A stretch of DNA of 64,000 nucleotides, from the NCBI RefSeq assembly GCF_003387475.1, contig NZ_QUNO01000009.1, positions 310,001 to 374,000 of the forward strand. Direction: 5' to 3'. Source of the stretch: Kutzneria buriramensis (lineage in GTDB: Bacteria; Actinomycetota; Actinomycetes; Mycobacteriales; Pseudonocardiaceae). This document shows positions 957 to 1,774 of this stretch, one piece after another; within the stretch, counting starts at the first letter, position 1; every line of letters begins with the position of its first letter. The translations under genes were made by a program, and so were the position numbers. The notes under the pieces are model-generated. The model searched no databases. It worked only from the letters and a program-made list of their open reading frames with translations, and was not told where the DNA came from.

Positions 957-987
957 TTGACTCTCCAGTTACGTCAGTTCCTACCGT
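957..987 (+). promoter_or_regulatory. candidate promoter of the L11-like gene
   Basis: TTGACT (957-962), a 19-bp spacer and TACCGT (982-987) lie directly before the ATG at 996. No Shine-Dalgarno sequence is visible in the few bases between. If this promoter is used, the transcript would begin at or within two bases of the ATG and be leaderless. The spacer is longer than ideal, so confidence is moderate. Confidence 0.35.
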
Positions 988-995
988 CTGCCGGC

Positions 996-1424
996 ATGGC
1001 ACGCTCGAAGAAGCAGACGCACCAGGTCACGCTGCACCTGGAGGGCGGCAACGCCGCCATGATGGACCTCGGCAAGATGCTGGGCCAGACCGGCGTCAAC
1101 CTGGTCGAGGTCAAGCGGAGCTACGACCAGGCCACCGCGGACCAGCGGGGCGACATCGTGCCGGTCGTCGTCAGCGTCGCCGACGACCGGTCGTTCGAGC
1201 TGCGCCTCAAGACGCCGCCGACGTCTCACCTGATCCGCAAGGCGTTGGGCGGCAAGGGATCCGCCCGCCCCGGCCACGTGACCGCCGGCCGGCTCAGCGC
1301 CGCCCAGCTCCGCACCGTCGCCCAGCGCAAGCTGCCCGACCTCAACACGACCGACGTCGCGGTCGCCATGCGCATCGTCGCGGGCACCGCCCGATCCATG
1401 GGAGTCGCCGTGGACGTCGAGTGA
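996..1424 (+). CDS. divergent ribosomal protein L11 paralog
   Basis: 142 residues, full L11 length, aligning with bacterial L11 end to end. The core matches L11 at LGQTGVNLVEVKRSYD, ATADQRGDIVPVVVSV, DRSFELRLKTPP, KLPDLNTTDVAVAMR and the C-terminal GTARSMGV. The striking difference is near residues 17-30. Normal L11 has a proline-rich PAPPVGPALG segment that contacts thiostrepton and the GTPase centre; here it reads AAMMDLGKMLG with every proline lost and one residue deleted. The gene is not beside rplA, secE or nusG, so it is not the housekeeping operon copy. It overlaps the next gene by GTGA. Possible roles are a condition-specific L11, thiopeptide tolerance, or altered stringent-response signalling, all inference. 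The ATG at 996 fits the L11 N-terminus. Confidence 0.85.
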   Translation: MARSKKQTHQVTLHLEGGNAAMMDLGKMLGQTGVNLVEVKRSYDQATADQRGDIVPVVVSVADDRSFELRLKTPPTSHLIRKALGGKGSARPGHVTAGRLSAAQLRTVAQRKLPDLNTTDVAVAMRIVAGTARSMGVAVDVE

Positions 1425-1774
1425 GTACCCACGTGCCGCCCTTCCGGCTGCTCGAACCGGCCCTGACCGTCGCGGAAGCGCTGCTGGCGCGGGGGTTCCT
1501 GGCCGACGTCGCCGCCGCCCTGCCCGACGAGCGGGCGGCGGCGGCGCGGCTCAACGCCGCCTTGACCGGTTCCCTTCGTCTGCAACGGAATCCGTGGCGC
1601 CTCGCCGCCGACGGCGACCTCGCCACCGCCGCTCTCGGGCTCGCCCTGCTGGTGGTCGTCGACGGCTGGCGTCGGCTCAAACGCTGCGAGGTCTGCGCGG
1701 CGGCGTTCGTCGACCGCACCAACGGCTGCTCCCGTCGCCGGTGCACGGTGCACCGACACCTCACGCGCCGCTAG
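1421..1774 (+). CDS. small CGNR-type zinc-finger protein
   Basis: 117 residues. The C-terminal part RLKRCEVCAAAFVDRT...CSRRRC matches the CGNR zinc-finger pattern of putative stress-related actinobacterial regulators: Cys89-x2-Cys92, an F-x-D segment, then R-R-x-C108. In the family the fourth ligand is the Cys of CGNR; here that position holds His113 in CTVHRHLTRR, so the site would be C3H or degenerate. The N-terminal domain is also shorter than in typical family members. The GTG start overlaps the TGA of the L11 paralog, so the two are translationally coupled and probably act together. The last 14 bases overlap the converging oxidoreductase gene. Confidence 0.65.
   Translation: MSTHVPPFRLLEPALTVAEALLARGFLADVAAALPDERAAAARLNAALTGSLRLQRNPWRLAADGDLATAALGLALLVVVDGWRRLKRCEVCAAAFVDRTNGCSRRRCTVHRHLTRR

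Follow-up and report, generated by a model that had tools for sequence, protein, structure and literature searches.

The window, a stretch of 64,000 nucleotides from the 11.97-Mb genome of Kutzneria buriramensis, carries on its forward strand (positions 996–1424) a gene for a 142-residue paralog of ribosomal protein L11 (uL11 family). Both Pfam domains of that family lie above their curated cut-offs, Ribosomal_L11_N (PF03946) at E 1.1e-13 with 51.2 bits against 32.9 and Ribosomal_L11 (PF00298) at E 3.3e-21 with 75.9 bits against 21.4, which bears out the preliminary description of a protein that is L11 along its whole length. The best PDB matches of the AlphaFold model (27 sequences; pLDDT 83.5, pTM 0.57; predicted helix at residues 22–32) are L11 chains. 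Against the NCBIfam model for bacterial L11 (L11_bact, TIGR01632) the product scores 123.5 bits, below the cut-off of 141.85, and we classify it as an L11-family protein that is, by NCBI's line, not an equivalog. The closest named relatives at this gene are from Kutzneria sp. (91% and 87%). The preliminary description had placed the paralog away from the rplKA operon and proposed a search for a second, canonical rplK beside rplA; that gene is present at G000:C1:508640–509053, in the order nusG–rplK–rplA. Overlapping the paralog's stop codon through GTGA is a gene for a small zinc-finger-like protein of 117 residues (1421–1774, forward strand), with a weak zf-CGNR match (E 0.03, 14.5 bits, below the cut-off of 24). 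The coupling of these two genes, also described earlier, is thus real in the window and not fixed elsewhere: the zinc-finger-like gene adjoins the paralog in 23 of 53 loci and in none of six sole-copy loci, those of genomes in which the paralog type is the only L11 found. It is an optional partner, and as a key to the paralog the coupling is not general.

Residues 20–30 of the paralog (positions 1053–1085, forward strand) read AAMMDLGKMLG and, in an alignment with the genome's own rplK product (L001) and 41 canonical rows, replace the proline-rich segment that contacts thiopeptides. Where L001 has NPAPPVGPALG, the paralog has no proline and is one residue shorter, at the E. coli N19 column. 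The exchange of PAPPVGPALG for AAMMDLGKMLG with one residue fewer therefore stands for the window; the accompanying statement that all prolines are gone fails for the wider family, where 73% of the 51 other paralogs retain a proline at the E. coli P20 column. The full alignment set 41 canonical rows beside 51 other paralog rows and the 6 from sole-copy genomes; two rplK rows of genus g3 were omitted from the canonical set as aberrant themselves. The E. coli P26 column is lysine in 51/51 other paralogs and in 6/6 sole-copy proteins, the P23 column is aspartate in 88% of paralog rows, and the C39 column is lysine in all of them. In the six sole-copy proteins the segment is proline-free, but a proline stands just past it, at the Q30 column. 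The paralog resembles canonical uL11 in its fold, in both domains and in 44 columns that hold the same residue in ≥90% of canonical and of paralog rows; it differs in being only about 50% identical to the rplK product of the family, in the lost proline-rich segment, in lying outside the nusG–rplA operon and in falling below the TIGR01632 cut-off. A further 29 columns are conserved in both sets with different residues. The 51 other paralogs retain the motifs KTPP and GTARSMG, and most conserved columns of the RNA-binding domain are kept in the C-terminal domain. In five of the six sole-copy proteins this GTARSMG motif of the RNA-binding domain, invariant elsewhere, reads GCARSMG or GSARSMG, a change that would argue mildly against unchanged rRNA binding. 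Separately, the operon-borne L11 of genus g3 (L063 and L064, from G002 and G048) reads NPASVGQALG, without PP and with Q in place of P26, a change to canonical L11 that seems independent of the paralog, and genus g37 is likewise low-scoring.

The paralogs form a single family, concentrated in Pseudonocardiaceae. Scanning genome contigs with six peptide patterns gave 40 loci, every one from Pseudonocardiaceae by title, and canonical-strength L11 was also present in 27/27 named carriers searched (27 of the 40). Among 60 sampled genomes of Pseudonocardiaceae, where the types were split by identity to the query (57–100% for the paralog type, 43–47% for the canonical), 15 held both, 5 the paralog type only and 38 the canonical only, and 2 gave no match. 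Among 200 genomes of the order, the paralog is present outside Pseudonocardiaceae too (G063, G164, G206); at class level, with E<=1e-36, three of 296 genomes matched, namely the window's own and two of another family. An L11 tree was built, as the preliminary description had suggested for such paralogs. In this tree of 101 rows, which has few columns and 55 of 98 inner branches drawn open, a single branch (SH-aLRT 100, length 0.99) splits the 57 paralog rows from the 44 canonical ones, and all 57 are those with lysine in the P26 column. The family is under purifying selection, with dN/dS of 0.08–0.25 in 10 informative paralog pairs (not all independent) and 0–0.10 in canonical pairs. A decayed recent duplicate, raised earlier as an alternative, finds no support in view of the long stem branch, the single clade and these dN/dS values; no stop codons were seen inside the paralog matches listed from family and order genomes. 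Carriage on plasmids or phages was also rejected: all 78 plasmid and 19 phage matching records lie below 60% identity (best 46.1% and 45.3%), the same as canonical L11. Twelve of the 78 plasmid records are from Clostridioides difficile, at least 11 of them with a gene annotated rplK.

Upstream of the paralog gene lies a MerR-type promoter/operator (957–987, forward strand), composed of a −35 element TTGACT (957–962), a 19-nt spacer with the dyad CTCCAGTTACGTCAG (963–977) and a −10 element TACCGT (982–987) that ends 8 nt before the ATG, so that the window's transcript is possibly leaderless. According to a section of PMC9909328, MerR-family promoters have spacers of 19–20 bp; the window and its relatives agree with this, having 19 nt from −35 to −10 with the dyad inside, and the general arrangement is TTGACY or TTGAGY, a dyad such as CTCCAGTAACTGGAG in the spacer and a TAGCGT-like −10. 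The site occurs upstream of the paralog in all 47 loci outside the known sole-copy set, within 130 nt in 46 and about 165 nt away in one; 34 of these loci are in genomes checked to hold canonical L11, and the other 13 are from Amycolatopsis. Scored with a matrix built from other genus groups, it outranked every other site of its locus in 46/47 (the top site of L030 lies about 165 nt upstream), and it ends 6–8 nt before the start codon in 35/47 and 27–39 nt before it in 11/47. Two of the sites are weak (L031, score 13.4; L156, score 20.7) and count against the interpretation that we favor below. None of the six sole-copy paralogs has the operator upstream (best score 0.6, at L148; others −15 to −28), nor does any of the 10 regions tested upstream of canonical rplK (scores −13 to −25).

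When 22 carrier genomes were searched with the Amycolatopsis form of the operator at <=3 mismatches, 43 places were found, against one for a backward control. Assigned by position and, for the remainder, by reading the sequence, 21 of them are promoters of the paralog, 11 belong to MerR genes and 7 to DUF2268 genes, and the last 4 are the paralog palindrome read in reverse. The operator in these genomes thus marks only the paralog, a MerR gene and a DUF2268 gene; in G515 the paralog promoter was not found within 3 mismatches. All three operator-bearing kinds are present in the window's genome, on contigs C9, C4 and C6, and the distance from the MerR gene to the paralog is 17–20 kb in seven genomes of Amycolatopsis and Prauserella type. 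The DUF2268 gene, for a putative Zn-protease, bears the paralog's operator at L285 (G000:C6 near 280769), L286, L296 and L303–L306, and at L303 its start lies about 200 nt past the operator.

The operator-linked MerR proteins are about 300–330 residues long, with the MerR domain N-terminal. A comparable known system is TipA, an autoregulated MerR protein that senses thiopeptides, as summarized in part of PMC7762955. Like TipA, the operator-linked MerR gene shares its operator with a presumed target and encodes a large C-terminal domain, which resembles TipAS in 6 of 11 members at E<=1; the best match, at E 4e-4 and 21.3 bits, is below the cut-off of 23.8. The proteins accordingly fall outside the TipA class as defined by a TipAS domain over cut-off, and their presumed targets, unlike those of TipA, include a ribosomal protein. 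A profile search of the PDB with the C-terminal domain returned no TipAS chain. Relatives of this domain are frequent on Streptomyces plasmids (21 of 26 records), so the MerR subfamily is not L11-specific. The sub-threshold similarity, the PDB result and the abundance of the subfamily on Streptomyces plasmids all count against the interpretation favored below.

Only a paralog-type L11 was found in 12 of 297 family genomes, from six genera (one match each, E 1e-11 to 1e-12), comprising every sampled member of g9 (1), g23 (2), g34 (3), g40 (2) and g43 (3) and one of g45. For G008, G023, G034, G040, G043 and G211, scoring all candidates with an L11 N-domain model yielded one gene, of the paralog type. 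The gap between nusG and rplA in these six is 79–136 nt without any L11 match, and rplK lies between the two genes in 13/13 control loci (two of them from another family); the assemblies of G023, G034 and G043 are single contigs. The call for the other six (G543, G548, G571, G553, G555, G573) comes from one search in which the best 20 of 28–46 candidates were scored, a further point against our preferred interpretation. G620 (one match, E 9.8e-10) was excluded from the count, and G056 and G760 gave zero L11 matches in the 297-genome search. At L132 (G011:C318) nusG and rplA stand without rplK and neither L11 type was found, in an assembly that is 74% complete. On sequence alone, L11-free ribosomes would be a conceivable alternative account of the sole-copy genomes.

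The six sole-copy proteins are one group nested within the paralog clade (SH-aLRT 96; paralog clade 100). A single clade for the sole-copy genomes was rejected both on an RpoB/RpoC tree (AU p 1.3e-52; 21 rows, 4 sole-copy), which is without G008 and G040, whose operon contigs break off too soon, and without G027 and G016, whose stretches lack rpoB, and on a Rel tree (AU p 0.005; 13 rows, 7 sole-copy), which is without G043, whose 772-aa frame did not pass a motif filter. These two trees were used because a tree of RplA and NusG was poorly resolved, with one locus skipped. In the RpoB/RpoC tree, G211 falls together with two congeneric genomes that have canonical L11 only (100/99). The sole-copy genomes are not one clade, and replacement of rplK has therefore recurred; the simplest account is that one subtype was transferred and rplK was then lost separately in several lineages. 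No clustered neighbor is common to the six sole-copy loci.

Codon usage distinguishes the two situations as well. Judged against RplA and NusG of the same genome (a reference of about 1.3 kb), sole-copy paralogs outrank 48 of 51 neighboring ORFs in codon adaptation, and ranks in eight two-copy genomes are 46/49 (window), 5/8, 3/10, 3/11, 1/3, 8/9, 4/9 and 4/14. The excess over background is greater in the six sole-copy than in the eight two-copy genomes (p 0.005), and such ribosomal-type codon usage fits heavier use of the sole-copy genes. The window paralog is an exception, being highly codon-adapted despite the presence of rplK, and this too counts against the favored interpretation. The intermediate codon adaptation seen in most of the two-copy genomes, the zinc-finger-like neighbor of 23 of the 53 loci and the changed GTARSMG of five sole-copy proteins would each suit an L11-derived protein that has departed from the ribosome, perhaps to bind RNA in partnership with the zinc-finger protein. 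We consider this very improbable, as the paralog is the only L11 found in the 12 genomes above, some of them single-contig with rplK gone from the operon, the zinc-finger-like gene is missing from all six sole-copy loci examined, and most RNA-binding-domain columns are conserved. The earlier suggestion that the protein had left the ribosome altogether is thus a poor fit with these genomes; among the options then put forward, thiopeptide-resistant ribosomes would fit best.

The thiazoles of thiostrepton stack on the L11 prolines, and changes there or at A1067/A1095 cut binding and give resistance, as set out in passages of PMC5960728. The closest known system is TclQ, a micrococcin immunity protein described in part of PMC12724294 as an L11 paralog with a Pro-to-Thr change, encoded in a cluster that also holds a putative MerR gene, tclU; a B. 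cereus paper states that contact of TclQ/TclT with rRNA was not tested (section of PMC10704990). The window family is like TclQ/TclT of the micrococcin/thiocillin clusters in having a second L11 changed at E. coli P26 (in our own alignment, Thr in the pBac115 paralog in the column that is Lys here) and a MerR regulator in the system, and it answers the description of a TclQ-type protein, a second L11 altered at thiopeptide-contact prolines. However, the pBac115 protein retains PAPPVG with one proline changed, whereas most of the segment is replaced in the window family, and the pBac115 gene lies in a biosynthetic cluster, whereas the window-family gene is chromosomal among recurring core-like neighbors. 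The window family further differs in having the operator at the paralog gene itself with the MerR gene distant, and in having replaced rplK in several genera. We file the paralog as functionally a variant of the TclQ kind and not as a member of the cluster-borne type. That TclQ-type genes are located in micrococcin clusters, and that Amycolatopsis fastidiosa makes thiazomycins (from titles cited in PMC3917276), would accord with an immunity gene of, or left from, a producer's thiopeptide biosynthetic cluster instead of a stand-alone responder. This origin is highly improbable, given that the neighbors of Amycolatopsis paralog loci recur in fixed order and look core-gene-like (names read from sequences) and that a YcaO fragment of pBac115 (one divergent query) had no match in 61 loci.

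We propose that the paralog is, somewhat probably, an inducible, thiopeptide-evading alternative L11 that has replaced rplK in some genomes. Its rRNA-binding C-terminal domain would be mostly kept and its thiopeptide-stacking proline face remodeled, with P26 always lysine. In genomes with rplK, the paralog would be mostly off or low behind its MerR-type promoter, to be turned on by an autoregulated MerR activator with an effector domain that is at best distantly TipAS-like. On sensing a ribosome-targeting thiopeptide or similar drug, the activator would cause the spare L11 to be made and built into ribosomes, whose GTPase centres would then have low drug affinity. In at least six genera, a subtype of the paralog would have shed this control, been expressed constitutively and taken the place of rplK. 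Within this scheme we infer binding of rRNA, incorporation into ribosomes, action of the MerR protein on the paralog promoter, the nature of the inducer and the resulting resistance. The changed GTARSMG counts against it, as do reported L11 mutations: a review excerpted in PMC3917276 cites work in which rRNA mutations prevented thiostrepton binding and L11 mutations did not. The more specific version is a stand-alone drug-sensing switch in which a MerR protein, without a biosynthetic cluster, responds to an antibiotic of the GTPase centre by swapping L11 for a proline-free form; this resistance protein would repeatedly have taken over the housekeeping role, with deletion of canonical rplK. We rate this version at slightly under an even chance.

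The regulator might instead sense another cue. A stress- or stage-specific alternative L11, with a remodeled N-domain that alters contact with A/R-tRNA and blunts Rel activation, would draw on the response of MerR regulators to metals, redox stress and drugs (in part of PMC9909328) and on cryo-EM work, as reported in passages of PMC4974054, in which RelA activation depends on the N-terminus of L11, its contact being with the A/R-tRNA and not with RelA itself. Such a role would also suit the operator's presence at the DUF2268 gene, which has no known thiopeptide link. We regard this alternative as unlikely though by no means negligible: the conserved change covers the thiopeptide contact, the same column is altered in TclQ, for which thiopeptide immunity is proposed, and a full-length Rel frame (772–827 aa) is kept in 8/8 sole-copy genomes examined. 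Loss of the stringent synthetase in these genomes was thus not seen. The case for a co-evolved 23S rRNA is mixed. Among 10 sole-copy genomes with a 23S match, A1067 is kept in nine, and the GTPase centre of G008 (L173, L218) carries A1067G together with U1097A. U1078 was read in 10/10 sole-copy genomes and also in 3 of 14 others, and may reflect ancestry.

Thiopeptides bind at the proline-rich segment of L11, a segment also linked to the function of translation factors and of Rel, and genera apparently without rplK that live on a proline-less L11 constitute a natural experiment on the need for it. If the reading as a captured drug-sensing switch is true, whole genera run permanently on GTPase centres without the proline-rich L11 face. 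If the system is thiopeptide-driven, it would represent inducible resistance by ribosomal-protein exchange, outside a biosynthetic cluster. The named operator and MerR gene make the switch testable in culturable Amycolatopsis and Kutzneria. We recognized no description of this L11 paralog in the open-licence PMC literature, which is no proof of absence. In a portion of PMC9290621, rplK serves as an indicator gene for resistance and Amycolatopsis strains are given a minus, and a paralog below the TIGR01632 cut-off might be overlooked in such scoring.

A separate imperfect dyad, TTGTATCAAGTGGTCGACACAA, is present at positions 901–922 of the window, upstream of a divergent membrane-protein gene. 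At L003 a GntR-like gene (read from sequence) lies beside that membrane-protein gene, and the dyad may therefore be the latter's own operator.
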